Of a DNA stretch of 64,000 bases, positions 6,000-49,500 are shown piece after piece. Position 1 is the stretch's first letter. The number at the start of each line of letters is the position of its first letter. The DNA is from Chamaelirium japonicum (Eukaryota > Streptophyta > Magnoliopsida > Liliales > Melanthiaceae), in contig CANTAL010000666.1 in NCBI GenBank assembly GCA_947650365.1, forward strand, positions 1 through 64,000, given 5' to 3'. Below the pieces are notes generated by a model. It was not told the DNA's origin. It ran no database searches and worked only from the letters and a program-made list of their open reading frames with translations. Made by a program: the position numbers and the translations under genes.

Positions 6000-6625
6000 A
6001 GTCCTAAATTTGTTAAGATATTAGCTAAAGTCCCTCTCGAAGGACACGTTTATACATAAGTCCCTAATTGAAAATGTTAGACTTTTTTTTTACCCTTTAT
6101 ATTACAAAACCGCCTCTTTTGCAAGAGTATATGTTTGTTTTCAATAAGAGTATCCGTTTGTGTTTGGCATGAGTATCCATTCACCGATAAACACTATACA
6201 TGTAGCAGTTGCTACAGTGATTTCACTATAGCTACTACAGCGAAACACTGTAGTAAGAGTATACATTTGTCTTCGGAAGAAAGTATTCATTCATCATTAA
6301 CAAGAGTATTTATTCGCAGGGTGACACTGTGCATGTTGCGGTTGCTCCAATTATTTCACAGTATCAAGAGTATCCATTCGTCTCCAGAAAGAGTACCCAT
6401 TCAGGTAATTGATACTCTTGCCACAGTGAAATCACTGTAGCTACAGTCAATTCGCTAAATTGATATTCTTACCAAATCGAAATGATATTCTTGCTACAGC
6501 AATTTCACACTATAGCAGCTACAGTGAAATCACTGTAGCAACCGCCACATGCACAGTATCAACCAGCGAATGGATACTCTTGTTGTAGATGAATGGATAC
6601 TCCTTTTGAAGCACATGAGGGGAGT
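6000..6625. repeat. Repeat with CTACAGTGA/TCACTGTAG hairpins, copy 1
   Basis: Several short palindromes built from CTACAGTGA and TCACTGTAG are interspersed with repeats of AAGAGTATCCATTCG. A related sequence starting with the same TTAGNTAAAGT...GAAGGACA leader lies at 13530-13800, and a third, more diverged one at about 48437-48620. This looks like a dispersed noncoding element family with many potential hairpins. Confidence 0.7.
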
Positions 6626-7663: not shown

Positions 7664-8812
7664 CTAATGTTGTTTGAACCAAATGGGTTGCCAATGCACT
7701 TTATGGCCATCCAGATCAAAAAACCTAATGCAGCTATCCTCCAAGCTGAATTCACCCATGTCATGATAGAATATCCCACATTCGCTATCCTCGGTGAAAT
7801 AGATGCAATTTGGTCGGTACCCAGGGAACTGCGCAGCGGGGAGAGAGAACGATTGATTACGGCCGACGAACAGTGCCCGCTCACCTAAGCATGTGATCCT
7901 CTCCCATGGCTCCCGCGTTTTGTACGCGTCCTCGCCTCTATGTCTGAGCCTGAAAACCTCGAAATCAACTGTTTTATACCAGATCTCCTCTTCATCCACT
8001 TCATCCTCCAAATCGTCTGTCTTATAAACGATCTCCATGACCTTCACATGCCTGAAGACATACAACAAATCTTCGGATGACTCCACAAAGTAAACCGGAA
8101 CCACGCAATCCGGAATCATGCTAATCGGTGGCTGCCAAATACTGCCTTCTTGCTTGTTTGAACTGATGTCCCAAACAAAAGGAGTAGGCAGCCGTGCAAC
8201 ATAAAGCCTTCCCTCGTAAAACATGGCATCTGAATGAGGATGACCATGCATGTCGAAGCCGGTCCACGAGCCGTCTGTAGCCATGCAGAACCATACCTCG
8301 TCACGCCATCCACCAACTCTCACAAAGACACAGTCTGGATCTAGAGGATTACTGGATATGATAACCTTTTCAACAAAACAACTCTTCCAATAGCTCTTTC
8401 CTGGATGACCCTCGATAACACCTTCCCTTAATCTGGTGGCGCCTGGGGAGAGTGGAGTGAATGGAGGGAGCACTACTTGAGCTCTCGTGAAAGGGTGTAA
8501 GAGACGAACCACCAGATCATCGTCTACAGTAATCAACCAGCCATCGGATGTCCCACAGCACCGCTTATTGTGGAGCTCGGGGAGATGGAGCTTGAAAACC
8601 TTCTTATCGACAGGGTCATATAAGTTACAGGTCTCGGCGTCTTCCTCATAGGAGGTAATCAACAATGGATGAAAGAGATGGCCCCTTTCCATCCCAACAG
8701 AGCGCCACGAGAGGCAAACAAAAGAAAACCGCTGGATGTCGGGGAGGAATTCCAGCCTTCCAACAATGAGTCGAATGATATCGATCGGAAGCTTCGACCA
8801 ATCGCCCATCAT
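7664..8812 (-). CDS. F-box protein with KIB1-4 beta-propeller (DUF295) domain
   Basis: This is an intact single-exon frame of 382 residues. Residues about 4-40 (SKLPIDIIRLIVGRL ... FSFVCLSWRSV) form an F-box, the module that binds Skp1 in SCF ubiquitin ligases. The rest matches the plant KIB1-4/DUF295 family: a propeller-like body, then a C-terminal block with FEVFRLRHRGED, W-RI-CLGERALFVGRNQSFSLPA and FPGYRPNCIYFTED, the most conserved family signature. Length is usual for the family (about 350-420). Two Met codons start the frame; I take the first. Its likely role is substrate selection for ubiquitination in nucleus or cytosol; the substrate cannot be inferred. It stands alone between repeats. 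No TATA box or intron is obvious. Confidence 0.93.
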   Translation of the reverse strand: MMGDWSKLPIDIIRLIVGRLEFLPDIQRFSFVCLSWRSVGMERGHLFHPLLITSYEEDAETCNLYDPVDKKVFKLHLPELHNKRCCGTSDGWLITVDDDLVVRLLHPFTRAQVVLPPFTPLSPGATRLREGVIEGHPGKSYWKSCFVEKVIISSNPLDPDCVFVRVGGWRDEVWFCMATDGSWTGFDMHGHPHSDAMFYEGRLYVARLPTPFVWDISSNKQEGSIWQPPISMIPDCVVPVYFVESSEDLLYVFRHVKVMEIVYKTDDLEDEVDEEEIWYKTVDFEVFRLRHRGEDAYKTREPWERITCLGERALFVGRNQSFSLPAAQFPGYRPNCIYFTEDSECGIFYHDMGEFSLEDSCIRFFDLDGHKVHWQPIWFKQH

Positions 8813-26068: not shown

Positions 26069-26148
26069 ATAAAATCCCATACCCGATCCAGTCTTCAACC
26101 CATTGCCTAGCCAATGACCGCACCGTACATCTGAGTCGAGTGAAAAAC

Positions 26149-26186
26149 TTAGCTCAGTTGGTCGAGCGCGTGGCTTGTTTCGACAA
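26149..26186 (+). other. tRNA-Asn-like 5' fragment in the FKBP leader
   Basis: TTAGCTCAGTTGGTCGAGCG followed by CGTGGCTTGTT resembles the D-arm and 5' anticodon stem of nuclear tRNA-Asn, including an A-box. No T-arm or B-box follows; instead the FKBP start codon appears within a few bases. It could be a SINE or tRNA relic or chance. Confidence 0.4.
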
Positions 26187-26187
26187 C

Positions 26188-26463
26188 ATGAGCATCTTCT
26201 CTTCAGCGCTCCGCTCTCCTCCTCCACCGGTTGGTCTCCCGCCCACCCAGAAAACCCTAGCCAACGCCGCCCTTTCACCACCCGCTACCACAAGGAGAGT
26301 TCTTGTTTCTGCTGCGGCGCTCATCTCCTCCGCCCCACTCTTATCATCAGCGGCAGCATCATCTCCTCCCGCCGCGGAGTTTTTCGAGATCCCGGCCTCC
26401 GGCGGGGTGAAGGCCTTGGAACTCCGCGAAGGAGGCGGAGAGATCCCATGCGGCGGCGATGAG
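26188..26463 (+). CDS. FKBP19: FKBP-type PPIase, thylakoid lumen (FKBP19-like), exon 1
   Basis: Exon 1 encodes residues 1-92 of a 212-residue protein; exons 2-4 are at 40358-40480, 44485-44601 and 49378-49500, all phase 0. The family catalyses peptidyl-prolyl cis-trans isomerisation or acts as a chaperone. Residues 1-35 look like a chloroplast transit peptide. A twin-arginine pair (TTRRVLVSAAAL, Arg36-Arg37), a hydrophobic stretch and an AxA site near residue 57 predict Tat import into the thylakoid lumen. The mature part opens EFFEIPASGGVKALELREG, as in Arabidopsis FKBP19. The start gives this targeting peptide; an upstream in-frame Met at 26005 would lie inside the hAT element. The donor is ambiguous: GTGGTA allows exon ends at 26463 or 26466, adding one Val. 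I prefer 26463 because it keeps the family spacing DE-VxIHYYG. Confidence 0.88.
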
Positions 26464-27146
26464 GTGGTAAAAGATTGTTTGTTTATTACTAACACAGTCG
26501 TTCCGTTTCAAATTAGGCTTCTTTTCTTCTTTTCTTTTTGGGGAAATTAAGTGTAGGTCCACGATAACATTTTGGTTATATTAAGAGGACGGTTTCATTT
26601 GTTTGCGTACAGTAGGTCCATATACAATGGTTAATTTTAAAGGTGATCATTTTCCAATTTTTTTTGCACGTAAGAGGCATTTTCAAACCGTTTTGGATGA
26701 CATGTTTTTTTAAAATACCAAAAATACTCATGAGATTTTCCCACATCAATTCACAGTAGATGCTAGTGTCACGGTTTGTTGTTTCGACTCGGGGGGACAA
26801 TGAGTATATTTGGTAAGGGAAGATCTCGAGTATTTTTGGTATTTAAAAAATACGTGTCATCCAAAATGGTTGAAAAGACCCTCTTACTTGCAAAAAACGT
26901 GAAAATGATCGATCACCTTTAAACCGAACTGTTGTCTATGGACCTATTATAAGCAAACAAATGAAATTGTCCTCTTAATATAACGAAAATATTACCGTGG
27001 CTCTGCAGTTAATTTTCCCATAAAATTAACAGGAGGGAATAAATTTGTAATAAGAAAAGAATCATAATATGAAGCAGAACGACTGTGTTAGTAATAAAGA
27101 AACGATCTTTTACCACATGATCGTCGTCAGATAGGGTCTCTCCGTC
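26435..27146. repeat. 0.7-kb imperfect palindrome across the exon 1 splice donor
   Basis: The left arm starts in exon 1 (GCGGAGAG...) and runs through the donor into intron 1. The right arm (to 27146) carries the reverse complement, including the motifs TGGTAAAAGAT, TTATTACTAACACAGTCG, TTATATTAAGAGGAC and GTCCATA. The axis is near 26790. The inner part looks like a foldback element; the outer part is an inverted duplication of the exon-intron junction itself. Confidence 0.85.
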
Positions 27147-27147
27147 A

Positions 27148-27300
27148 TTTGTTTATTACTAATACAGTCGTTCTGCTTGAAATTAGGCTTCTTTTCTCGT
27201 TACTTATTTATTCCCTCATGTTAATTTTATATGTGCATGTGGAATAATAGTGATCTAATAGCTGATTTATATGGGGTTTTCAATTGTAAATGTAAGTTGC
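27148..27300 (+). repeat. Direct duplicate of the start of intron 1
   Basis: Immediately after the palindrome, TTTATTACTAATACAGTCG...AAATTAGGCTTCTTTTCT repeats 26470-26530 in direct orientation. It runs on into TGTGCATGTGGAA and AATAGCTGATTTAT, which recur at 37862-37990. So the 5' end of intron 1 exists in four versions (one inverted). Confidence 0.8.
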
Positions 27301-27411
27301 GGGTGCGATGGTGTTAGCTCAGCTAGTAGAACGATTTATCCTACCCAAAAAAAACCCACCATACATCTCTTATAGTAAATAAATAATAAAATAACCACAT
27401 AGTTTCTATGT

Positions 27412-27486
27412 CTGTCCCAACTCAGTTGGTATAACACATGGGTCGTGACCACGTCGTCGTGGGTTCGAATCCCACAGATGGTACAT
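27412..27486 (+). other. tRNA-like sequence or SINE head
   Basis: An A-box-like segment (CAACTCAGTTGGTATAACAC) is followed 30 bp later by a perfect B-box (GGTTCGAATCC) in a 5-bp T-stem (GTGGG/CCCAC). The presumed anticodon loop would read CGT, but the anticodon and acceptor stems contain mismatches, so an active tRNA is unlikely. A tRNA pseudogene or the head of a SINE fits. A partial A-box-like sequence is also present at 27313 (TTAGCTCAGCTAGTAG). Confidence 0.5.
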
Positions 27487-27619
27487 TTTATTATTATTTT
27501 TGGCATTTCAAATCTGGGGACAACTTGAGCGTAGCCAACACCGCCCTCTTTATTTGTTTTGGGGCGGCTATATACAACACAGTTTTTTGTAAAGGCAAGT
27601 CGCGACCGAAGGTAACCCT

Positions 27620-27847
27620 ATAAGTTATTACCTTTTGCTAGTCCTCTCTTCCTCATTTGCTTGTCGGTGTCGCTAATCTTGTGCAGATCGAGACCTCCTC
27701 CTCCTCCTACATATTCACCTCTTTCCTCCTCCTCCTCCTCTTTATACTCCTCTTCGCCTTCCCTCTCACTTCCTCCCCCTTCCTTCTCTTCTTCTTCTTC
27801 TTCTTCTTCGTCTTCTTCCTACTATCGACCATTTTAGTCCAAGTGTA
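27620..27847. other. CT-rich low-complexity tract
   Basis: CTCCTCCTC and TTCTTCTTC repeats between the tRNA-like sequence and the LTR copy. No gene. Confidence 0.6.
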
Positions 27848-28739
27848 TGTATGCGCAGAAAAAGATACGGGTCGTCTTTATTGCAAACACACGAAGATTA
27901 CAGATGCCGGGACCCGGGGACTCGGGGGTGGTGAGCCAGGTGCGGCGAATATTTGATCAGGAGATTGTGAGAGAGTTCCTCTAGAGGGTCCCTTTGATCC
28001 GCGTCTCTACGTGGTATTCGTGCGAGAGCTCTGAAAGGGTTGCCTAGGACAGAGGTCTTTACAAGGTGAGGGTTTCTTGAGAGGCTAAGGAGTATCTACC
28101 GTTTCTTTTGTCCCTTCCGTGCTTTCTCGGCTATGGGGTTTTTGGCTTCATTCCTCGGTCTTCGTGTCTTTCTCGATCTCTGTTAGACCTTGGCGTTCTT
28201 GATCGTCGGTTCGCGGCGTCAATCGTGCTGTTGGCATCGGCTTTGGCTTTGCTTCGGCGTGGCTCTGGCTTTTGCTTTGCTTTGGCGCTTGCGCTTGAAC
28301 GTAGACGGGTAGAGACTTGCGATGCTTTAGTTCTTCCGGACTTCGCATCGTATCGGCTAGAACGTGCGGTGCTTTGCTCATGACCGGCGTAGTTGCTTGG
28401 CTTTTGGCACTTGTGTTGGTTTGGTGCGGGTTTTACCAGTGCTTTTACTTTGGCTTCTTGCGTTGGCTTTTGCTTTGGCTTCTTGCGTTGGCTTTTGCTT
28501 CGGCGTTGACTCAATCTTCTTCTCGAACGACGATGACTACTTTCTTCAAGGCTTCTTTATTCTTCCGGCTTACTCGACGGTTATGGCATCGGCTTGACTT
28601 CACTTCTTCTCTGAGCTTCTTTGGCTTGATCGGAGTTGAAGGCTCTGTTTTGAAGACGACGGGCCGCGGGCGTAGCGACGCTTCGGGTGTCCTTCTCCAA
28701 GCTTTCTACTTCGTGAATGGAGCGGGCGTTTGTTGAAGA

Positions 28740-28995
28740 TGACGGGGTGATGCCATTTCGATCTTCCTCTCTGGGCTTTTGGACTTGATCGGAGTCGAAG
28801 ACTTGTTGGAGACGACGGGGTGATGTCGCTCCTGTCTTCTTCTCCGGGCTTTTGGGCTTGATCGGAGTCGAAGGCTTGTTGGAGACGACGGGATGATACC
28901 GCTCCTATCTTCTTCTCCGGGCTTTTGGGCTTGATCGGAGTCGAAGGCTCGTTGGAGACGTCGGGGTGGTACCGCTCCTATCTTCTTCTCCGGCC
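28740..28995. repeat. Minisatellite in LTR copy B, ~80-bp unit
   Basis: Three to four units share CTTGATCGGAGTCGAAG, TTGGAGACGACGGGGTGAT and TCTTCTTCTCCGGGCTTTTG. Confidence 0.8.
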
Positions 28996-29106
28996 TTTGC
29001 TTTTGGCGTCTTCGGAGTCAAAGGGTTCTTTTTCTTCGAGCTTTCTCCTTCGTGCATGGAGTTGAATGGGTGATCTTCTTGTGCAAGGGTCTTCACTTTG
29101 AGGAGG

Positions 29107-29347
29107 ACTTTCAATGGACTAAGTCGGTCCCGAAGGGATAGGCTTGCCCGTGCCTCGTGAAGCCTTGGGTCGATAAAGGGCACGTCTCCTCCTCTGCAGA
29201 GCTTCCTTGCTTTGTCTTCAGCTTTGAGGACTTTCAATGGACTAAGTCGGTCCCGAAGGGATAGGCTTGCCCGTGCCTCGTGAAGCCTTGGGTCGATGAA
29301 GGGCGCGTCTCCTCCTCTGCAGAGCTTCCTCGCTTTGTCTTCAGCTT
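29107..29347. repeat. Near-perfect 120-bp tandem duplication in LTR copy B
   Basis: Two adjacent units share ACTTTCAATGGACTAAGTCG, GAAGCCTTGGGTCGAT and TCCTCCTCTGCAGAGCTTCC with only a few base differences, so the duplication is recent. Confidence 0.9.
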
Positions 29348-30075
29348 CCGACCCCCTTGAGCCATCCCCTTCCCTCTCTATTTATAGGTGAAGGGGGGTG
29401 GGAGATATATGGGAAGATTTATTTGAATTCCCTTTAATATCTCCCCCATAACTACCCAAGATTTATTCTTCCATTGATGGGGGGAATAAACCTTTATTTG
29501 CTTTCCTTTTCTGACGGAGTAGTTATGGCTCAATCATTTTTGAATTTATTTGAATCTTGCACATAAAGTCGATGGCGACCCGACTTCGTTTATTGTCCGT
29601 CGGATCGAGGGATCGGCGCAGATCTACGCTTATGTAGACGTCATACGCAACCTCCCCCGCGCATGGCGGTCTTTCTTTCCTTTTTCTTCTTTTCTTTCCT
29701 TTTCTTTCTTTCCTTTTCTTTCTTTTCTCTTTTTTTCTTTTTTTTTCTTGCATGGCCGGCCACCCCTTACCTGCAGGTAAGGGGCTCGGATTTCTAGAAA
29801 GGGGCCGAGTGGGCCCCACTTGAAGGTGGGCCCACCCGGCCTCTTGTTTGGGCTCGGGTCGGGGTCGTCTCCGAGTCGATGCATGCGAGTCCGAGTTTAT
29901 GTCGGGTTTGCCTCCGAGCCGATGCATGCCAGTCGGGTTTGGGTCCGAGTTCGTGTTGGGTTTGCCTCCGATTCGGTGCATACGAGTCGGGTTCGGGTCC
30001 GAGATCGTGTCGGGTTTGCCTCCGAGTCGGTGCATGCAAGTCGGGTTCGGGTTTGACACAATTTGTGTGTCTACA

Positions 30076-30544
30076 GTGCATACACAATCCATTCATCTTG
30101 AGAAAACCGAGTGTATTGTAGTGGCACTCGGCTACTGTCGAACACTCGGCGTCCGCCTCCAACAAAATGATCTGGGTTCCTCATCTTGGATTAGGAGCGA
30201 ACACTAGCAACCTATTCAGGGAAAGAATTGGAACTTCAGCTTAATGTGGCCCAAAGGCCTTTGAGCATTTTGGTTGAAGCCTTAAAGTGATATTGCAGGC
30301 TTTTCACTTAGCTTCTTCTGGATAAATCAGGGATCTTCAATTCGTCGACCGCTCAACTTGGACGCTGAACTCGCTTTTGTGGAGTCCTAATGCACTCCAC
30401 GATTTCTGATACACTTGTTGAAGCACTCGGCCTCGACTGATTGAATGGTCAATAGGAGCACTCGGTTTGCAATTGCCGAATGAGATGCAGAGACTTGGAG
30501 GAGGAAGAAGAAGAGGAAGGAGGGACAAAGAGGAAAACGGAGGT
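30076..30544. other. Interval with recurring ACTCGG words
   Basis: Several GCACTCGG or ACACTCGG words occur between the LTR copy B and the Copia 5' LTR. No coding frame is recognised. It may be the missing or rearranged 5' end of the Copia LTR or another repeat. Confidence 0.4.
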
Positions 30545-31145
30545 GGGCGCCAGTTGTGGCGCCTTGGGCGAAATCCAGAGAGCCCCAGCAGAAATGGTGC
30601 CACAACTGGCGCCCTGCACGAAAACCCTAGAGCACCAGCAGTAAATTTCGCCCTGGACGAAATATTGGCACTCAGGGCACAAAACCTGGAGCTAGGTAGA
30701 ATGGTTTTTTGTAGCCTGACACCCAGTGCAAGAATTTGGCACCCTCGGCTCCCGCACAGCTCGAGGCACGAGTTTGGATTTTTGTAAGGTTTTTCTTTGG
30801 GGTTCAACTAGCTTTTAAGAGCCATCTTTTGTAAGGTTGTTGAAAGAATATTGAGAGACCATTGGAGAGGGTTTAGATCAGCAAGGAGAGGAGTAGAGAG
30901 GTGACGATTGATTGAGGAGAAGACATGGTTGAGTGATTCCCTTGTAGATTGAGAAGGAGTTGTTCCTTCCGATCCGTTTATCCAAAATAGTGAAGTGCAT
31001 GATCTCGTGGTAGGATGTAGGCAATGCCGGACATGGGTAAATCCGTGTGTCCTGTCTTTCTTGTCTATTTACTGGATTCTCTCGTGGATTGTTTTGCTTG
31101 TTTATTGTTGTTTTCTTTTGTCGATCACTTGCACGATCTACAACA
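30545..31145 (+). mobile_element. Copia 5' LTR (5' end truncated)
   Basis: It matches the 3' LTR at 36994-37648 with many substitutions: CCTAGAGCACCAGCAGTAAA, TTTCGCCCTGGACGAAATAT, AGATCAGCAAGGAGAGGAGT, and the end GCACGATCTACAACA. The first ~80 bp present in the 3' LTR are not recognisable here. The divergence implies an old insertion. Confidence 0.88.
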
Positions 31146-31146
31146 A

Positions 31147-31162
31147 CTGGTATTAGAGTGAA
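31147..31162 (+). promoter_or_regulatory. Primer-binding site (initiator tRNA-Met type)
   Basis: CTGGTATTAGAGTGAAG begins one or two bases after the 5' LTR and matches the usual Copia primer site TGGTATCAGAGC with two changes. Confidence 0.75.
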
Positions 31163-31413
31163 GTTTCAAAGGAAGCGATGACAGAAGAAGGAAAGATAAG
31201 GATCAAGAAATTCAATGGGTAGAATTTCGGGTTCTGGATGATGCAGATCGAAGACTACCTCTATCAGAAGGATCTGTATCTGTCGCTCAAAGGAGTAGCA
31301 GGCAAGCCGAAGGACATGGACGAGGCGAATTGGATCATTCTTGACAGAAAAGCCTTAGGTGCGATTCGAATGTCCCTATCTCCAATAGTGGCATTCAATA
31401 TCTCCTTCGAAAC

Positions 31414-31773
31414 CAGTGTTTTAAAACCCGAAAAGTTGACTCAAATCGGAACCTTTTCGAATAGAGTCGACTTGAAAACTTGGTCAAAACTCGACCGAGT
31501 AGTTACCTAGAAATTCGGTTCATAAAACAAGTTACTAATATTTATTATATATTTCTTTATAGTATAAAATCAAATATTATCGATGTATTGTACATAATAT
31601 TAGATTTTTTATATAGCTGTATAAATAAGTTGATGAAAAATATAATTAGGGCGAGTTTTGAAGCATGTTAACCGAGTTTTGGACCGAGTCAACCGAGTTG
31701 TTACCTGTCCGAGTCGATGGGCGAGTCGGCTCGATTTTCTGTCGAGTCGAGTCGAGCTGAGTTTTAAAACACT
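31414..31773. mobile_element. hAT-like MITE inside Copia gag
   Basis: This 360-bp insertion has terminal inverted repeats AGTGTTTTAAAAC / GTTTTAAAACACT and a perfect 8-bp target duplication TTCGAAAC at 31406-31413 and 31774-31781. The interior is rich in GAGTCGA / TCGACT words. It interrupts the gag frame. Confidence 0.9.
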
Positions 31774-33954
31774 TTCGAAACGACTACATATGGTTTGATA
31801 AAAACGACTACATATGTATGAAAAACCCTCATCATCAAACAAGGTTCTTCTGATGACGAAATTGTTCAATCTAAGAATCTGAGTATGAAGGAAGGAGGGA
31901 GCGTGGCTGAAGACCTAAACGATTTCAATATAGTAACGAGTCAATTGAAGTCGGTGAAGATCGCTTTTGATGATGTGATCCGAGCCTTTCTGATTCTCTT
32001 GTTCCTTCCGGACATTTGGGGTGGATTTGTGATGGCCGTCGGCAACACTTCAGGAACGGAGTCTCTAAACTACGAAGATGTCGTAGGTTTGCTATTGAGC
32101 GAGGTGGTTCGAAGAAAGTCATCCGGAGAAGTATTAGGGAGCGCCCTGAACACAAAGAGCAGAGGGAGCCACAAGAACAGAGGTCCTTACAAAGGGAAGA
32201 GCCGTGGAAGATCCAAGTCAAGGGGTCTTCCTGAAAATCGGAAACAAGACGGGTGCTGGAACTGTGGCTAGAAGGGCCACAACAGTAGGGCCTAGGGACT
32301 GTAGACTTCTAAAGGTACAACAACCTAGCCCGAGCAGTGCAGAGCCATCTACAAACGTCTTTGAAGCAGTGCACGACGAGATATTGATACTCTCGATGGA
32401 TGCCAGACAAGAGGTCTGGGTGGTCGATTCGGATGCGTTTTTCCACACAACATCTAACTGGGACATCCTCTGCAATTATGTACAGGGAGATCTCGGAAAT
32501 ATGTACCTTGGAGATGATGAACCGTGCAACATAGTCGGCAAAGGAGATGTCCAGATAGACCTGAGCAACGGTCTTGTTTTGCGGTTGAAGAACATGAGCC
32601 ATGTGCCGAGCTTGAAGAGCAACTTGATCTTCGTCTGCTAATTAGCCGAGGAGGGGTACATGACTACATTCACCGCCGACTTGTGGAAGATCACGAAGGG
32701 ATCCTTAGTCACGACACATGGCAAGGAAAGGATTCTCTACTCCACATTGGGCACAACAAACGTTATCTCGGCAGCCACTGCAAATGAAGATTCGAAGCAG
32801 TGGCACCACCGGTTAGGCCACATGAGTGAGACCAAAATGAAGATCATTCTCTCAGAAGGAGAAGTAAGGGTACCGGGTCTCAAGTCAGTAGACCTTGAGC
32901 TATGCGAGGGCTGCATATTCGGGAAGCAGAAGGTCAGTTTCTCCAAGGACGAAAGACCAAGAAAGTCGGAGAAGCTAAAGCTAGTACACACAGACGTCTG
33001 CGGTCCGGTTCATGTATCATCTATGGGTGGTTCCACCTACTTCGTTACATACAGAGATGATAGTACTAGAAAGCTTTGGGTTTATTTCCTTAAAGCAACA
33101 TCTGATGTATTTGGTACCTTCAAAAAGTGGAAAGTTCTTGTTGAGAATGAGACTGGAAAGAGGCTTAAGGGCCTACGACCAGATAACGGTGGCGAATACT
33201 GCAGTAGAGACTTTGAGGATTACTACGCTACGAACGACATCCAAAAACAAAAGTCCATCCCTCACACACCTCAGCAAAATTGTGTGGCTCAACGGATGAA
33301 TAAAACGTTGATAGAGCGAGCGAGGACCATGCGAATCCACTCCAGTCTGCCGAAGAAGTTTCGGGCCGATGCTGTGAATACGACCGCCTACCTGGTCAAT
33401 CAAGAGTCATCGGTTCCACTAGGAGGTGTGATTTCGGAGAAGTGGACATGTAAGACAATGAGCCTGTCTCACTTGCGCGTCTTTGAATGTACGGCTTACG
33501 TGCACATCGATTCTTAGAAGCGTAGCAAGCTCGATGCGAAATTTTTGAAGTGCTACTTCATCGGCTATGAGCTGAACGAGTTTGGCTATAGACTAGGACG
33601 GCAAGACAAACGATTCTGAGGAGTTAGGACGTCATCTTCATTGAGAAGGTGATGTAAAGTGACAACAGAAGACAGGACTGAGCAGAAAGAGTTCGTTGAA
33701 CTGGATGAGGTCGAGGACAGGCATATTCTGAAGGAACGAGATTTGAATCAGCATGTACATTAGGCTCTGTAAGTCGACCCAGCGCCTTCTACGCCTCCCA
33801 TCGCCATGAGGAGATCAACACATATGCATCAAGCACCGCATAGATACTCTCCATTTCTGCATTATCTATTACTGAGAGCTTCGATGAAGCTGCTTAGGTA
33901 GATGCAAAGGTCAAGTGAGAGCACGCTATGGAAGAGGGGACGGAGTCTCTTCAT

Positions 33955-34528
33955 CATTGTTGTCAAGGCGCGAGCCTAAGCGCACCTAGGCGCACTAGGC
34001 GCCCGGAGACAGCTAGGCCCCAGTGCGCCTAGGCGCACCTCACTAAGTGGCGGCCTAGGCGCGCAGGCGCACTTAGGCGCACGCCTAGTTTTAGGCAATG
34101 ATTTTTATTTTTTTTTTTAAAGTAAAACCCAACCCGCCCCCATCTTCTTTGTTCATTTTGTTGTTGTATACTGGTCAATACTATGTGTTTATTGTGTTGC
34201 ATGCATTTGATTAGAATATGCTCAATTTTATGTTAGCAAGTGTTTGTATTCTATTTGTTCCTTTTGATGTTTACTTGTTTATACTATGTATGTGTCATTG
34301 TGTTGCATGCATTTGACTATAATATGTTCAATTTCATGTTAGTAAGGTGTTATATTGCTTCCTATTACATATATACATGCAAGTATAGACTATACATATA
34401 TACCCGTGCCTGGAGAATGCCTATGCATATAAGGCCACGCCTATGCACGTAAGGCCATGCCTAGGCGAGCCTAGGCTCCTAGGCTCCCTCCGGGTGCCTC
34501 GCCTCGCCTTGACGCCTTGACAACTATG
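33955..34528. mobile_element. hAT-like MITE inside Copia reverse transcriptase region
   Basis: This 574-bp insertion starts CATTGTTGTCAAGGCG and ends CGCCTTGACAACTATG, with a perfect 8-bp target duplication CTCTTCAT at 33947-33954 and 34529-34536. The two ends carry many GCGCCTAGGCGCA-type palindromes; the middle is AT-rich with a repeated TATGTTCAATTT...ATGTTAG segment. Confidence 0.92.
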
Positions 34529-35689
34529 CTCTTCATGACAACTAGACATGGAATCTGGTGAATCTACTAAAGGGAGAGAAGGTTCTACAGAACAATTGGT
34601 TCTACAGGCTAAAGGAAGAGCATGGTGGTTTAAAGCGCTATAAGGCAAGGCTTGTAGTCAAGGGCTTCCAACAGATCTACATTTGGAGGAGTTGGACATG
34701 AAGACGACGTTTCTTCACGGAGACCTCGACGAAGACACATGCAGCAACCACAGGGATTCCTAGCAAAGGGCAAGGAAGGCAAGGTCTGTAGATTGAAAAA
34801 AAGCTCGTATGGTTTGAAGCAAGCGCCACAGTAGTGGTATTAGAAGTTCGATGGCTTTATGTCCAGGAGCAGATACAAGAAGTGCCATTCATATCACTAC
34901 TGCTACTTCAAGAGGTTTGGTGATAGATTCATCATCCTCCTGTAGTATGTTACGACATGCTGGTCGCCAGAGTCGACATAGAGGAGATAAAAAAGCTGAA
35001 GTAGAGGCTGTCAAAGGAGTTCTTGATGAAGGATCTGGGTCCTTCTAGACAGACCCTTGGCATGCGTATCAGCAGGGACAGAAGCACGCGGGTGTTGACA
35101 CTGTCACAGGAGAAATACATGGAGAAGTTCTGGAAGCGGTTTGCAATGGAGAATGCGAAATTGATCAACATGCCCATCACCAATCACTTCAAGTTATCGA
35201 AGCGGGACTGTGTAAAGGCACAACATGAGAAGGACTATATGGCAAAGGTCCCTTACTGCTCTAAAGTCGAGAGCCTAATGTATGCTATGGTCATACGAGG
35301 CCAGATATAGCACAAGCAGTGGGAGTAGTCAGCCGGTACATGAGCAACCCAGACTGTTGCACTGGCAAGCGGTAGAATGGCTATTCAGATGCGTACGGGG
35401 AGCTTCCAAGATGGCGCTGCACTACGGTGGTTCAGAGGTCAGACTGCAAGGTTACGTGGATTCAGATCTAGGAGGAGATCTAGATAAAAGAGGAAGAGCA
35501 CGACAATATACATGTTTATGTTGGGGAGTGGAGGCATCAGTTGGGTTTCACAGTTGCAAAAGGTCGTGGCTCTTTCTACTATCAAGGCCAAGTATGTTGC
35601 GACCTCGGAGGCATGCAAAGAGATGGTGTGGTTGCAGAACCTACTGGAGGAGCTCAAGATGGAGCCTAGGCTTTTTGGCCTGTCTAAGC

Positions 35690-36674
35690 GAAGCGGTGCC
35701 TAGGCGATGAGTAATTATTAAATATTTTTATATATAGTATAAATATTTAAATTCAACTCAATTTTGAGTTAATTCAACTCAATTTTGAAAAACCCCTAAG
35801 TTCTTATGAACCCATCATAAGAATTTGAGTTAGTTCAACTCAATTTGAGTTAATTTTACTCAATTTGAGTTAATTTTACTTAATTTTGAATTAATTCAAC
35901 TCAAATTTGGAAAAAAAATCCAAATTCTTATAAGCCCATCATAAAAAATTGAATTAATTCAACTCAATTTTGAGTTAATTCAACTCAATTTTGAGTTAAT
36001 TCAACTCAATTTTGAAAACCCCCCAAATATTTATGAACCAATCATAATAATTTGAGTTAATTAAACTCAATTTTGAGTTTATTCAACTCAATTTGATTTA
36101 ATGCAGCTCAATTTTGAGTTAATTCAAGTCAATTTTGAAAACCCCCCAAATGCTTATGAACCCAATATAAGAATTTGAGTTAATTCAAATCAAATTTGAA
36201 AAACCCCCAAATTCTTATGAACACATCATAATAATTTGAGCTAATTCAACTCAATTTTAAGTTTGTTCAACTAAATTTTAAGTTTGTTCAACTAAATTTG
36301 TGTTAATGCAACTCAATTTTGAGTTAATTCAACTCAATTTTAAAAACCCCCAAATTCTTATGAACCCATCATAATAATTTGAGTTAATTCAACTCAATTT
36401 TGAAAAACCTCTAAATTCTTATGAACCTATCATAAGAATTTGAGTTAATTTAACTCAATTATGAGTTTGTTCAACTTAATTTGAGTTAATGCAACTCAAT
36501 TATGGTTAATTCAACTCAATTTTGGAAAAATCTCAAATTTGGTCAAGTGAAAAAACTGTCAGGCGCCTAGGTGGTATTGGGGGCCAGGCGGTCCTAGGCG
36601 GCGCCTAGAGAAAATCACTCGCCTAGGGGGTCGCCTAGGCACCCAAGGGTCCAGCGCCTAGGCGACGCTTTGAC
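35690..36674. mobile_element. Related MITE inside Copia RNase H, with tandem array
   Basis: The insertion divides the RNase H frame between LLEELKMEP and SAIYLVKNAVF. Its ends read GTCTAAGCGAAGCGGTGCCTA and, inverted, GTCAAAGCGTCGCCTAGGCG, and contain the same GCCTAGGCG words as the MITE at 33955, so it is likely a family member. A clean target duplication is not visible. Confidence 0.75.
35745..36540. repeat. Tandem array of ~90-bp units with TTGAGTTAATTCAACTCAA palindromes
   Basis: Some eight degenerate units share AATTTTGAAAACCCCCAAAT, TCTTATGAACCCATCATAAT and one or more copies of TTGAGTTAATTCAACTCAA, a near-perfect dyad. The array fills the interior of the MITE at 35690-36674. Confidence 0.85.
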
Positions 36675-36993
36675 TACAGAGAGAGCGCCATCTACCTTGT
36701 GAAGAATGCCGTCTTTAACAAGCGAACAAAACACATCGACATAAAGTTCCACTTTATTCAATCCCTGTTGGAAGACAAGGTGCTGAAGTTGGAGAAGATA
36801 CATATGAGCAAGAATCCGGTGGATATGCTAACCAAGGTGGTCACGGTGGGGAAGCTGAACAGTTGTTCGGTTTCTATCGGTCTAAGGCGATAGACTAAAC
36901 ATTCAAGACCTGTTGCTGCTACTGAGGAGTCACGACTATTGTCATCGAGTTGCTGATTGAAGAACCAGAAGGGTCTATCTACAGGTGGGAGAT

Positions 36994-37648
36994 TGTTGTG
37001 TGTGGAGACCAGACCGCGAACCCAGCTCGGATCATAGCCCGAGTAGTATTGGCACCTTGGGTGCCACTTCTGGCTCCCTAGGCGAAATCCAAAGAAATGG
37101 TGCCCTGGGCAAAAACCTTAGAGCACCAACAGTAAATTTCGCCCTGGGCGAAATATTGGCGCCCAGGGTGCCAAACCTGGAGCTGGGTGCAGTGGTTTTC
37201 TGTAGCCCGGCGCCCAGGGCGAGATTTTGGCGTCTTGGGCGTCCGCACGACTGGAGACACGAGTTTGGGTGTTTTTAGGGTTTTCTTTGGGGTTTAAATA
37301 GGCTTTTGAGAGTTGTCTTTTGTAAGATTGTTGAGAGAACATTGAGAGGCCATTGGAGTGGTTTAGAATCTTTAGATCAGCAAGGAGAGGAGTAGAGAGG
37401 TGGCGATTGATTGAGGAGAAGATATGGTTTAGTGATCCCCTTGTACATCGAGAAGGAGACTTGTTCCTTCTGATCCGTTTCTCCAAGATAGTGAAGTGTA
37501 GATCTCGAGGCAGGACGTAGGAAATATTTGCCCAACCTGGGTAAATCCGTGTATCGTCTCTCTCTCTTGTCTCTTTGGTTGATTCTCTCGTGAATTGTTT
37601 TGCTTGTTTCTTGTTTTCTTTTGTCGATCGCTTGCACGATCTACAACA
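36994..37648 (+). mobile_element. Copia 3' LTR
   Basis: This 655-bp LTR follows a polypurine tract (AGGTGGGAGATTG) and has TGTTG...CAACA termini. It contains several GCGCCCAGGGCG-like words and a TTTAAATAGG TATA-like motif near 37299. It is the partner of the LTR ending at 31145. Confidence 0.9.
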
Positions 37649-37861
37649 CGGCATGCACGGCCGACAATGTTGGCAAAATAGGAGGAAAGAGGGAGAAGGG
37701 AAGGTAAAACTGGGATATGGTGAAAGTCCCTATCTCAGGGTTGCCTTAGGTAAAATATCGGTTTAATGGGTTGCTCGTACATAGAGTTATTTTAGATATA
37801 TTGAATGTATGATTTACAGGCTCCCCCAAGAAAAAGCGGTGATGTATCTAGCCACACCCTA

Positions 37862-37995
37862 TTTGTTTTGTTACTTACAGTCGTTCTGTTTCAAATTAGG
37901 CTTCTTTTGTCGTTACTTTAATTTTACTTGTGCATGTGGAAAATGATTTCTAATAGCTGATTTATATTGATTTGTCTACTTCAAAAAGTAAGTTT
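37862..37995 (+). repeat. Fourth copy of the intron 1 start sequence
   Basis: TTACAGTCGTTCTGTTTCAA...GGCTTCTTTTGTCGTTAC, TGTGCATGTGGAAAAT and AATAGCTGATTTATAT match 27160-27290 and, in part, 26480-26530. It lies just beyond the Copia insertion. Confidence 0.75.
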
Positions 37996-39555
37996 CCGGT
38001 GTTTATGGGTTCTAATTATATGAATTAAGGGTTTTACTCCATACCTGTGCTACTGTCGTCTTTCACTTTTAACATGGTTATTTGCTGTGATAAAGTTAGT
38101 TATTATCGTTTTGTATGGGAGGGGATTTGAACTCTGTAGCTATGTGTGATATTATTATTATTATTTTTTACGACTATGTATTTGTTAATGTTTCTTATTG
38201 TAATTGTAAGTTGTGGGTGTGATGGTGTCTAGTTCTTGACAATAAGGGAGTTCAGTTTTCAATTTCCATGCTGTGAATTTGATTTAATCTGATGAAATGC
38301 TTTCGTTTTTGCCCCCATATATATTTTGGGATTGTGGCAATTAGGGTTTTGCCACTTTACAGTTGTGTAGAAGACAAATCGGTCAAAGATTCGTGCCTGC
38401 GCCAAGTAGACTCTGGACTCCCAAGTAATTCAACTTCTTTTTTTTTGACTCATCACCCACAGATTTCTTCCTATTGGGTTATGATTCCTGAAATGTGAAT
38501 TATATTACGTTACATTATTAATTGTTAGCCTACTGGGAGTGACATGAAGAATAAAATTGGTGGTCGGAAAATGCATTTATGCATTTTATTGAATAACAAA
38601 TGTTGTTGACTTACATCCAATGGTGGTGTGAGAAGTGGTGCTCTTTTATGGATAAAATTAGAGCTCCCAAGGGCTAAAGCAACCGAGGATAGGCACAAAA
38701 CTTTTGACATGGAAGTTGCTATTGTCCTCTAATAGTTGTTGCCTATTTGGAATGAAGACCTGAAGAGGCAACTATGACGATGATGTGTAGAAGGATTGAA
38801 GAGGCTTGGATTAGCAGAGGATTTAGCCTATAATAGAAACATATGGCGAAGAAGGATCGCGAGATCTGACGATTCTGACCCTAACTAGTAGTTTCCATTT
38901 TTTTTTTCTTTCCTCAAGCTTATTACACTGCACTTAGGAATCATCATCAGTATCACCATTACTAATTTACTATTAATATCTGTGCTAGTTTGTTTATATT
39001 AGCATATTTTTCTTTTTCTTGCTCTCCTACCCAATTTTCTTCTGCATCTTCAACCTCTTTCCCACTCATCTGAGTTGTGGACTGCTCTCTACCTTCCAAT
39101 TGACATTTGCCAGACTTCTCGGCACAAACCATGATGGGTTTGATGTCAGACCGTCATTTTGTTGGAGAATGTCTACTAAATATCTTGTGGGAGCCTTCTT
39201 GCAATTGCACTCAGAGTGATATAGCTCCATGTAAGGCCTTGGTTGTTGTTGTTGCATCTGAAGGACTTTGCAAGATTGAAGGTTAAACCAAATTAATCAA
39301 CAGATAACTTCAGAAGAAATAATTTCAGAATTTCGTTGTCTTTCTTCAGTGCCTAAAAAAGAAACCCTCAAGATTGTAAGATCCTTTCACCGAATTATTC
39401 TGAAATTCAAAATAGGAAAACAATATTAAAAGAGCTAATGATGACATAAATCTAGGAAAGAAAGAAGAGTATATTATAGTCCAATTCCTATCCTAGCCCA
39501 CTAGGACGCATATAATCATGAGTATGGCCCCTAAGGGATTTAAACAAGGGTTAAT
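37996..39555. other. FKBP intron 1, mostly unique sequence
   Basis: No gene. About 38770-38880 reads like the end of an RTE-type LINE (ENLAYNRNIWRRRI-like, then TCTGACGATTCTGACCC), but short. A (TTA)n stretch lies at 38150-38170. Confidence 0.5.
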
Positions 39556-40357: not shown

Positions 40358-40480
40358 GTTGCAATCCATTACTATGGGAGGTTGGCTGCAAAGCAAGGGT
40401 GGCGCTTTGACTCGACATACGATCACAAGGATGAGATGGGTGGTCCTGTTCCCTTTGTGTTTGTCATTGGCTCCGGAAAA
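40358..40480 (+). CDS. FKBP19: FKBP19-like PPIase, exon 2
   Basis: It encodes residues 93-133, including HYYGRLAAKQGWRFDSTYD, the most diagnostic FKBP19-type block. Phe109 and Asp110 match the conserved FD pair of the FKBP pocket. The acceptor is AAG at 40357 with a weak pyrimidine tract; the donor is GTAAGA at 40481. Intron 1 before it is about 13.9 kb. Confidence 0.93.
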
Positions 40481-44484: not shown

Positions 44485-44601
44485 GTTATTTCAGGCATTG
44501 AGGCAGCTGTGAAGTCAATGAAAGCGGGAGGTATTCGCCGTGTCATTATTCCTCCATCAGAAGGATATCAAAACACATCCCAAGAACCCATACCGCCTAA
44601 T
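44485..44601 (+). CDS. FKBP19: FKBP19-like PPIase, exon 3
   Basis: It encodes residues 134-172: VISGIEAAVKSMKAGGIRR then VIIPPSEGYQNTSQEPIPPN. In FKBP12 the aligned position of the pocket Trp (GW in VIxGW) is Ile138 here, so isomerase activity may be weak. Flanked by an AG acceptor at 44483-44484 and a GTACGT donor at 44602. Confidence 0.94.
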
Positions 44602-46548: not shown

Positions 46549-46984
46549 GGGGGGCATGTGAGTTGCACGTGATAGAGTTCATGTACATTTTGATAACGTT
46601 AATGAAAAAATTCAAAGCAAACTGAATTTGAAACTGAGTGCACGAATCGTTTGATTGATAAAATAAGATTAATGATAATAAGACACCAATATGAATATGA
46701 AGATATAAATATCCGGATTGGTTAGAAAAAAAGGTCTATATCGCAGATCCCATTGAGGAATGCATCCATAGTGATTTATACATCATGAAGTTCTGTATTT
46801 ACAAACGATATTGGTTTTGCTAATAAAAGTTTGGGCTTTGGAATTCACTCATACATGCCCCCAATCTCTAGTAAATATCCGCATCAAGATAATATAGTAT
46901 GTATATAATTAGAAAATAAATTTGGAAAGGTGAAAGGGAAAATTCGAATATAGTGCTTTCTAGTTCTGCATTATAAATAAGGGT

Positions 46985-47490
46985 TTTTTACAAATCAACC
47001 CCTATAATCTTCTTTATTTACATATAAACCCTTATAAAGTCAATATTTACATATAAACCCCTTAAATCATCCAATATTTACATATCGACCTCTACAGTTC
47101 GTTGGCATCCAAAATGAAGGAATATTTCTGAAATATTCCTTCATTTGGCTGTTGTTTTATTAATCTAAAGAGGAAATAACCGATTTACCCATGGTTTTAA
47201 TTACTTAAAATGACATTTTTATTGAACATGGACTTAATCCAAAACAAACATAGACATAACCCGAATTGAACTAGGACCTAATCCGAAGAATTCTCACATT
47301 GGAGGGGTATTTACAGTGTTTAGGTAAAATATCAAGGATGAAATCAAAAATATTCTCTTGTTTTGGATGTCAACTAACTACAGGGGTCAATATGTAATAC
47401 TTGAATGAATTTAGGGGTTTATATGTAAATATCACTTTGATAGGGGTTTATATGCAAATAGAGAAGATTGTAGGGGTTGATTTGTAAATA
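46985..47490. mobile_element. Long-TIR nonautonomous element in FKBP intron 3
   Basis: The left end (ACAAATCAACCCCTATAATC, TTACATATAAACCC, ATCGACCTCTACAGTTCGTTG) is mirrored on the right (GTCAACTAACTACAGGGGTC, GGGTTTATATG, GATTGTAGGGGTTGATTTGT). TIRs are about 130 bp. A central GAAGGAATATTTCTGAAATA dyad lies at 47115. No transposase; a Mutator-type MITE is plausible. Confidence 0.8.
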
Positions 47491-49377
47491 ATTGAAAATT
47501 AATTTGGATAAATAGTCAAATGGGTGTTGGTAGCCTTTAAAAAGAAATATGACTATCGAATTGACACTGGGTACTATTGAGAGAACAACATATCATTTAT
47601 CAAATGCTGTACAGAAATGGGTCATCCTGAGATGACTAACATGTGTGCATGGAGTAAGGCATTGACGAGGAGAATTAGTTTTTCCATGATGGGACTTGTC
47701 ATCAAATTATTAAGGATAAGCTCATTTAAACTGAAACGAATCAAGGACACATGCATTAATTTACTATGTTTACTGTCTGATTAGATTCAAAATCAAGTTG
47801 ATTTTTTTTTTGGAGAAATCAAAATCAAGTTGAAAATGGCATGCCTTTTTGAAACATGTGTGTGTGTATGAATGTTAAGTTTGCATATCTTCATTGTTTG
47901 CCTGTTATTTTTATTATTTTTACAAAAGACTTAAGGTTTAATGTATTAACAAGTTTTCATAAATCATATTAAAAAATATTTGGATTTCTATTATAGTTCA
48001 AGCAGGTTAGTTTCACTATCTTTTCATTTATCACGTCTGATGTCTATATAAGTACATAGATAATCACATGCGTATAATTATTTCATAATAAGCATCAAAT
48101 AAAGTCGGCAACATTTTGTCTCATACTCTGTGAATATGAATAATTTATCGTTCAATTTGTTTGGATGTACACCAGTGAATCATTACAGACTTTTGTCATT
48201 ATAAATAGTGAGGCCACATCTTAGTCTCTCAGCTGATCCATTATGTACCTAGTATGGGTGTATGGATGACAACTGATGAAGGAGGAAGAAAAAAGAGGAA
48301 AAAAAACCGTAACGTGTTGGAGCTCCTCACCGAGGGCCCAGACTCCGGGGATTAAATAGTAGTAGTGCATCTAAGGGGTTGATGTGTTATTGACCTTGTA
48401 TCAGTAGCTTAATTAATTTTGTTCCCCCCAGAAAAAAGGGGAAGTTTGACATAAGTCCTTTTTGAGAGATGACTTTTAGTTGCAGGACATGTTAATTTCA
48501 AAATATATACTCTTTCTGAAGCGAATGTATACTCTTTCTGAAGACGAGTATATGCTCTTTCTGAAGACGAATGTGTACTTGTAGGGATCTTAGCTAATAT
48601 AGCAAATTATGGTGTTCTGCAGCTAATATTGCAAAATAGTTAAGGGCCTATACCTAATTTGCCAAAAAAAAAAAACAAGTCAATGCCATTTCTTAGGCGG
48701 TCACATCTGTTAGACAGTAGAAACACGTCCTGCTGCTCATGCATATAGAGAGAGGAGAGATGCTATTCTGCCAACTGCTTTGCCAACTTTCCATTACCAA
48801 CTTGAGGTGGCACCCGACCAGAGTGGTCTGTTTGCCTGCCAAGGCTGCCAGTTGGGGTTGTGTGCGATTCACCGGTTTGGGCTGGTTTCAATGGATGGCT
48901 ATGACCGTGCCACGGTATGTTGGAATGGAAAGTTGGCAACTCAGGTTGGAAGCATAGAAATCAAGGTACTCAGTGACAACGCTTATGGGATGCTTTAAAA
49001 GGTGACTACATATATGAGATGCAGACTCGGTTAAAATGAAAAAAAAAAACTGGGCATAGGATGGGTAGGAGTAAGTCGAAGGAAGCCGGAAGAGAGGACG
49101 AGATCACATCAAATTCAATTGTTTTAGGCCTGCAGATAAAGTGCTGTTCGAAAGTTTATTAAATGGAGGATTATTTCACATCCACTTTCCCCATTTCACA
49201 ATTTCCTTTCTCGTCTTTGTAACGATGGTTTCAAGGATTGGAAATCTTTAGGGCGAGCGAAAGATTTTGGCAGCGGGAGCTGATAACTTTCGTTTACACC
49301 GATCCCTGTGACCTGATTGATAACTTTCATGAGTTTGTTTTTCAAATGTTTCTCTGATTATCGACTTCGGTCAGCAG
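47491..49377. other. FKBP intron 3, last part
   Basis: No supported gene. About 48437-48620 is a diverged copy of the 6000-6625 repeat (repeated TATACTCTTTCTGAAGACGA). The 72-codon frames at 48739-48998 match no family I know. Confidence 0.45.
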
Positions 49378-49500
49378 ATATTTGATCGGCAGAGGTTGTT
49401 CACCACCATTTTTAATCCGACTCGCCTCGCCAATGGGGAAGGCTCGACTCTGGGAACTCTGATATTTGACATCGAGCTCGTCAGCGTGAGGCGTCCCTGA
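49378..49500 (+). CDS. FKBP19: FKBP19-like PPIase, exon 4 with stop
   Basis: It encodes residues 173-212: IFDRQRLFTTIFNPTRLANG then EGSTLGTLIFDIELVSVRRP and TGA at 49498. The acceptor is a tandem CAGCAG; use of the first site would add one Gln. I chose the second because it leaves PPN-xFDRQRL as in homologues. The C-terminal strand LIFDIELV is the usual end of FKBP domains. Confidence 0.94.
   Translation: MFDRQRLFTTIFNPTRLANGEGSTLGTLIFDIELVSVRRP

Follow-up and report, generated by a model that had tools for sequence, protein, structure and literature searches.

An FKBP gene of Chamaelirium japonicum with an inverted copy of its exon 1/intron 1 junction next to a transposon end

The exon 1/intron 1 junction of an FKBP gene of Chamaelirium japonicum is followed by an inverted copy of itself, and the two form a palindrome whose inverted arms are confirmed by alignment. 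From outside to inside, the arms carry 28 bp of exon 1, the splice donor with 76-98 bp of the intron start (host sequence L), and a repeat portion of about 205 bp (M1). All positions refer to the window, i.e. the whole stretch of 64,000 nucleotides analysed (assembly GCA_947650365.1, contig CANTAL010000666.1), and the features are collected in Table 1. Most likely, the palindrome is a scar of a familiar kind, left by repair or replication next to a transposon end. More precisely, we give somewhat better than an even chance to an old inverted duplication of the host edge together with the transposon end, produced within the FKBP gene by break repair or template switching.

Table 1. Positions of the FKBP exons, the palindrome, the direct copies of L and the transposon of intron 1 in the window
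Feature	Position	Strand	Remarks
FKBP exon 1, coding part	26188..26463	+	ATG to likely donor; open frame; splice site inferred from reading phase
Arm A	26436..26744	+	exon edge 26436-26463; intron start L 26464-26539; M1 5' end from 26540
Spacer, 71 bp	26745..26815	.	first 32-34 bp are M1 continuing from arm A (3 of 3 M1 loci compared)
Arm B	26816..27144	-	all inverted; M1 5' end 26816-27018; L 27019-27116; exon edge 27117-27144
Copy C	27147..27320	+	direct; L and R (the intron part after L); lacks M1, exon edge and donor
Transposon X	27561..37860	.	at start of copy D; nested LTR elements inside, flanked by pieces of the X family
Copy D	37861..38235	+	direct; L and R; without M1, exon edge and donor
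FKBP exon 2	40358..40480	+	open frame; splice sites by eye
FKBP exon 3	near 44485-44601	+	frame; splice sites by eye
FKBP exon 4	near 49378-49488	+	frame; splice sites by eye

The protein joined from the four exons matches Pfam FKBP_C (E 5.3e-20), and its top match in the PDB is a 70-kDa peptidyl-prolyl isomerase (E 7.8e-17); exon 2 alone gives a weak match to FKBP_C (E 0.059). The frames of the coding exons are open. Intron 1 measures 13,894 bp on this four-exon model, most of it being transposon X with its nested LTR elements. Judging by reading phase, the donor of exon 1 most likely follows position 26463 (GAG/GTGGTA), with exon 2 beginning GTT GCA at 40358. This donor places 28 bp of exon 1 inside the arm, and the alternative donor (GTG/GTAAAA) would place 31 bp there. 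A sequence-only reading of the same DNA had assigned the last 30 bp of exon 1 to the arm: the exon edge is indeed there, and its length is corrected accordingly.

The same reading had described an inverted copy of the junction, and had set an arm identity below about 70% as its refutation. Using BLAST of 26200-27400 against the window, we found that 26436-27144 matches its own reverse complement over 751 gapped columns with 74.0% identity (E 1e-116), and the self-match was recovered in the genome search (73%, E 1.5e-120). With gaps left out, the two arms are identical at 20 of 28 positions of the exon edge (71%), 66 of 76 positions of L (86.8%) and 169 of 197 positions of M1 (85.8%). The arms thus lie above the 70% limit. 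The similar values for L and M1 are those expected from one event. The exon edge, on the other side, is less alike than L (P = 0.08), which speaks against a common origin by repair. Moreover, L counts 22 columns fewer in arm A than in arm B; we read this as a deletion in arm A, which a repair origin would require to be later than the duplication itself.

We then considered the direct copies of L. Those announced at 27148 and 37862 are present, restricted to the intron part. Within the window, BLAST aligned 27147-27305 with 37861-38001 (74.7% identity), 27148-27209 with 26478-26539 (87.3%) and 26478-26537 with 37862-37919 (83.6%). Copies C and D both start about 12-15 bp into the intron, and both run uninterrupted across the point of the L-M1 junction, the M1 position being empty in each. 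Searches of the whole 1.52-Gb assembly, in which very common words were skipped, returned four matches for 26100-26539 and three for 37862-38300, all within the FKBP gene. L therefore exists in four copies, namely A, B (inverted), C and D. Break repair or template switching would be recognised by an inverted copy of adjacent unique sequence that an unrearranged relative lacks; of this, the inverted copy of unique sequence is seen in this assembly.

The start of copy D is today 10.7 kb away from copy C and would follow it by about 404 bp once transposon X is removed. X is flanked by an exact 9-bp target duplication, ATTTGTTTT (27552-27560 = 37861-37869), which suggests a Mutator-like DNA transposon. 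Four X loci were compared with the window: the parts near 30075 and at 37649-37860 are matched by all of them, the part near 30415-30547 by three and the part near 27552-27641 by two. One of the nested LTR elements that separate these parts has LTRs at 30604-31145 and 37095-37648 that are 82% alike. A candidate decayed exon edge upstream of D (37722-37763) was dropped because this stretch belongs to X; 20 of 300 shuffles were equally good. Just left of X, 27532-27547 shares 15 of 16 bases with 26258-26273 of exon 1 (2 of 1000 shuffles equal for 160 bp; BLAST E 0.18); it might be what is left of a duplicated exon 1, and we note it as a lead only. In addition, 27416-27483 resembles a tRNA (24.3 bits against an Rfam cut-off of 29) and is perhaps a piece of a SINE.

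M1 belongs to a transposon family. Of 580 first-look candidates, 40 were scored, and the M1 arm matches at least 39 places beyond the window; 26 of these were fetched, 6 with 1.5 kb on each side and 20 with about 0.5-0.7 kb. None of these 26 copies carries an M1 arm in opposite orientation within the stretch fetched, and no long opposite arm was found at any of 20 M1 loci searched over up to 5 kb of interior (2.2 kb for one locus, and 2,500 N in another). Inverted matches of 14-29 nt, like short terminal repeats, occur at five of the 20 loci. Seven of the eight copies tried have a common 3' sequence, and the element length by best flank match is 953-1140 bp in six of these seven and 1550 bp in the other. 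The best 9-mer for a target duplication of the kind that a Mutator-like DNA transposon would leave, chosen among many positions tried, is exact in one of the seven, agrees at 8 of 9 bases in another and at 5-7 of 9 in the remaining five. In the FKBP gene, L lies outside the outer end of M1 and adjoins it in both arms; the exon was therefore not taken up between M1 ends, and capture by a Pack-TYPE transposon was discarded for the same reason.

The relationship between the two M1 parts was investigated in a multiple alignment of the family. At least seven other copies, with 84.5% (L004, the best) down to 81.7%, are closer to arm A than arm B is (81.4%), and the tree of 28 M1 rows leaves A and B unjoined. 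The row closest to arm B is arm A (81.4%), the runner-up having 80.1%, and the median identity of the family is 79.4%. A and B have in common three letters that are rare in the family; 325 other pairs average 0.81, and several of them reach three or more. From the tree and the identities, the sisterhood of the two M1 parts is not established. The identities are compatible with a duplication soon after the insertion of M1, without proving it.

The order and orientation of the elements, the uniqueness of the host part in this assembly and the empty M1 positions in C and D are established directly, and the following history is proposed from them. M1 would have inserted into the first copy of L, and a break or a stalled fork would then have occurred within M1. 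Repair by fold-back of a strand, or by fusion of sister strands, would have copied backwards the M1 end, L and the exon edge, i.e. about 330 bp, and the end so produced would have been attached to the beginning of copy C, an L copy lacking M1. X inserted later at the start of D and shifted D 10 kb away. This origin is favoured by the restriction of the exon edge and L to the FKBP gene in the assembly searches, by the single long arm of the M1 copies examined elsewhere, by the position of L at the outer M1 end of both arms, by the proximity of arm B to arm A among the M1 rows and by the empty M1 positions. Against it stand the tree, in which A and B remain apart, and the distance of A from B relative to at least seven other copies; nor does it account for how C and D arose or for their common start in L.

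These two M1 observations speak for another reading, in which M1 inserted twice, independently and in opposite orientations, or conversion later reshaped the arms, next to an inverted copy of L and the exon edge that arose separately. This reading is a minority possibility. It has to contend with the agreement of the two arms, which run in one order through exon edge and L to the same end of M1, and both insertions must have hit L at nearly one place. The three rare letters common to A and B also argue against it, although several other pairs share as many.

To evaluate what the palindrome could do in RNA, we predicted its folding. The 709 nt have a predicted minimum free energy of -366 kcal/mol, against a mean of -193 kcal/mol (SD 40) for windows of 709 nt taken in steps of 500 bases, palindrome windows included. 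Co-transcriptional folding was predicted for growing transcripts starting at 26187 and ending at various positions. The pair 26468-27112, between the donor and arm B, has a probability of 0.999 for transcripts ending at 27145, 27200, 27330 and 27500, and of 0.001 for the end 27240, where B is predicted to pair with C instead. When arm A (26436-26540) was forced open, the transcript ending at 27330 lost 45 kcal/mol, a constraint that also bars pairing of A with exon 1. For ends up to 27030, where arm B does not yet exist, G26464 and U26465 have an unpaired probability of at most 0.19 and 26468-26470 are open (0.65-0.97). Part of the donor region would thus be newly closed by arm B. The long stem over the donor envisaged by the sequence-only reading is therefore borne out by prediction. 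Its proposal that the stem hides the donor is a prediction only: the predicted stem covers the donor, but B pairs with C at the end 27240, and the GU at 26464-26465 is mostly paired beforehand. In addition, binding of U1 ahead of the synthesis of arm B, about 650 nt later, would weaken the hiding of the donor.

By default, we assume no function beyond that of an intronic hairpin tolerated by the gene. The stem may also be a source of 24-nt siRNAs, by analogy with many plant inverted repeats: a review (PMC12595863) reports such siRNAs for 486 of the 634 inverted repeats located close to genes in Arabidopsis. That the hairpin is a maintained regulator, hiding the donor or feeding small RNAs that mark the 5' end of the FKBP gene, is unlikely in our view, even with these siRNAs, the strong predicted stem across the donor and a perfect run of 22 bp within L. 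Changes between the arms that favour wobble pairs are not significantly in excess (17 vs. 8; P = 0.11), and L differs within the stem as much as among the direct copies, i.e. it is conserved no better. The open coding exons and the competing B-C hairpin also argue against it. Even less probable is a scheme in which B would serve as a shared partner for the donor region of A and for C: nascent RNA would toggle between donor-locked and donor-released states, small RNAs from the stem would mark the 5' end of the gene, and a transposon-linked repair scar would, in a single step, have turned into a cis switch. On the minus strand, the B-C hairpin (27018-27232) matches MIR5048 in Rfam with 33.4 bits (E 2e-05), the cut-off being 160; this identity was rejected as lying below the cut-off, and the match was read as a general hairpin resemblance.

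The sequence-only reading had also suggested that a foldback element captured the exon edge, so that the palindrome of 709 bp would be a mobile unit whose arms carry the exon edge and the donor. The near-symmetrical arms, the short spacer and a core belonging to a transposon family are what such an element would present, and the arms had likewise pointed to the long terminal repeats of a foldback element or a MITE. This candidate was dropped once the M1 copies examined were found to lack the opposite arm (0 of 26 in the stretch fetched; 0 of 20 with a long one within up to 5 kb), and capture now appears very improbable. In the assembly searches the host part matched the FKBP gene only, it lies outside the outer end of M1, and arm A is in its place within the open FKBP frame. 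Moreover, no direct 9-bp duplication was seen by eye around 26436-27144, the nine bases before 26436 differing from those after 27144. An artefact of assembly is hardly credible: the contig is only 71,253 bp long, but the arms differ by about 14%, where a read-level palindrome would be expected to be nearly identical, and the four copies of L differ from one another.

A repair or replication scar of this kind can be compared with several known systems. In template-switch hairpin mutations (PMC8794818), a single event likewise produces the reverse complement of a neighbouring stretch, which is able to fold into a stem; the FKBP copy differs in its length (about 330 bp) and in the transposon end that it includes, and its own event is a proposed one. 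In the inverted duplication model of plant MIRNA origin (PMC3237417), inverted duplication of a gene or transposon also generates a hairpin, whereas the FKBP inverted copy lies within an intron of its own source gene. Gene-proximal inverted repeats and MITEs of plants, which are reviewed in PMC12595863 as sources of 24-nt siRNAs, likewise place a transposon-containing inverted repeat in a gene; the FKBP repeat, in contrast, is not formed by the transposon's own terminal repeats and includes an exon edge and a donor. Pack-TYPE transposons also have a gene piece next to a transposon end, the piece being located between the ends and not outside the terminus as in FKBP. If the repair origin is correct, the splice donor of the gene would have been duplicated in inverted orientation next to a transposon end, with the coding exons still open. 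The gene would offer a natural test of how well a donor is spliced in plants when a stem of about 300 bp can lock it. The locus also shows that a palindrome bearing a repeat is not necessarily a foldback element.

Elsewhere in the window, two further palindromic repeats, each about 0.5 kb long, were observed, one pairing 46984-47144 with 47331-47491 (81% alike) and the other 6140-6268 with 6480-6610 (74% alike). Finally, an open frame on the minus strand (7664-8812) encodes an F-box protein with a KIB1-4 beta-propeller domain.
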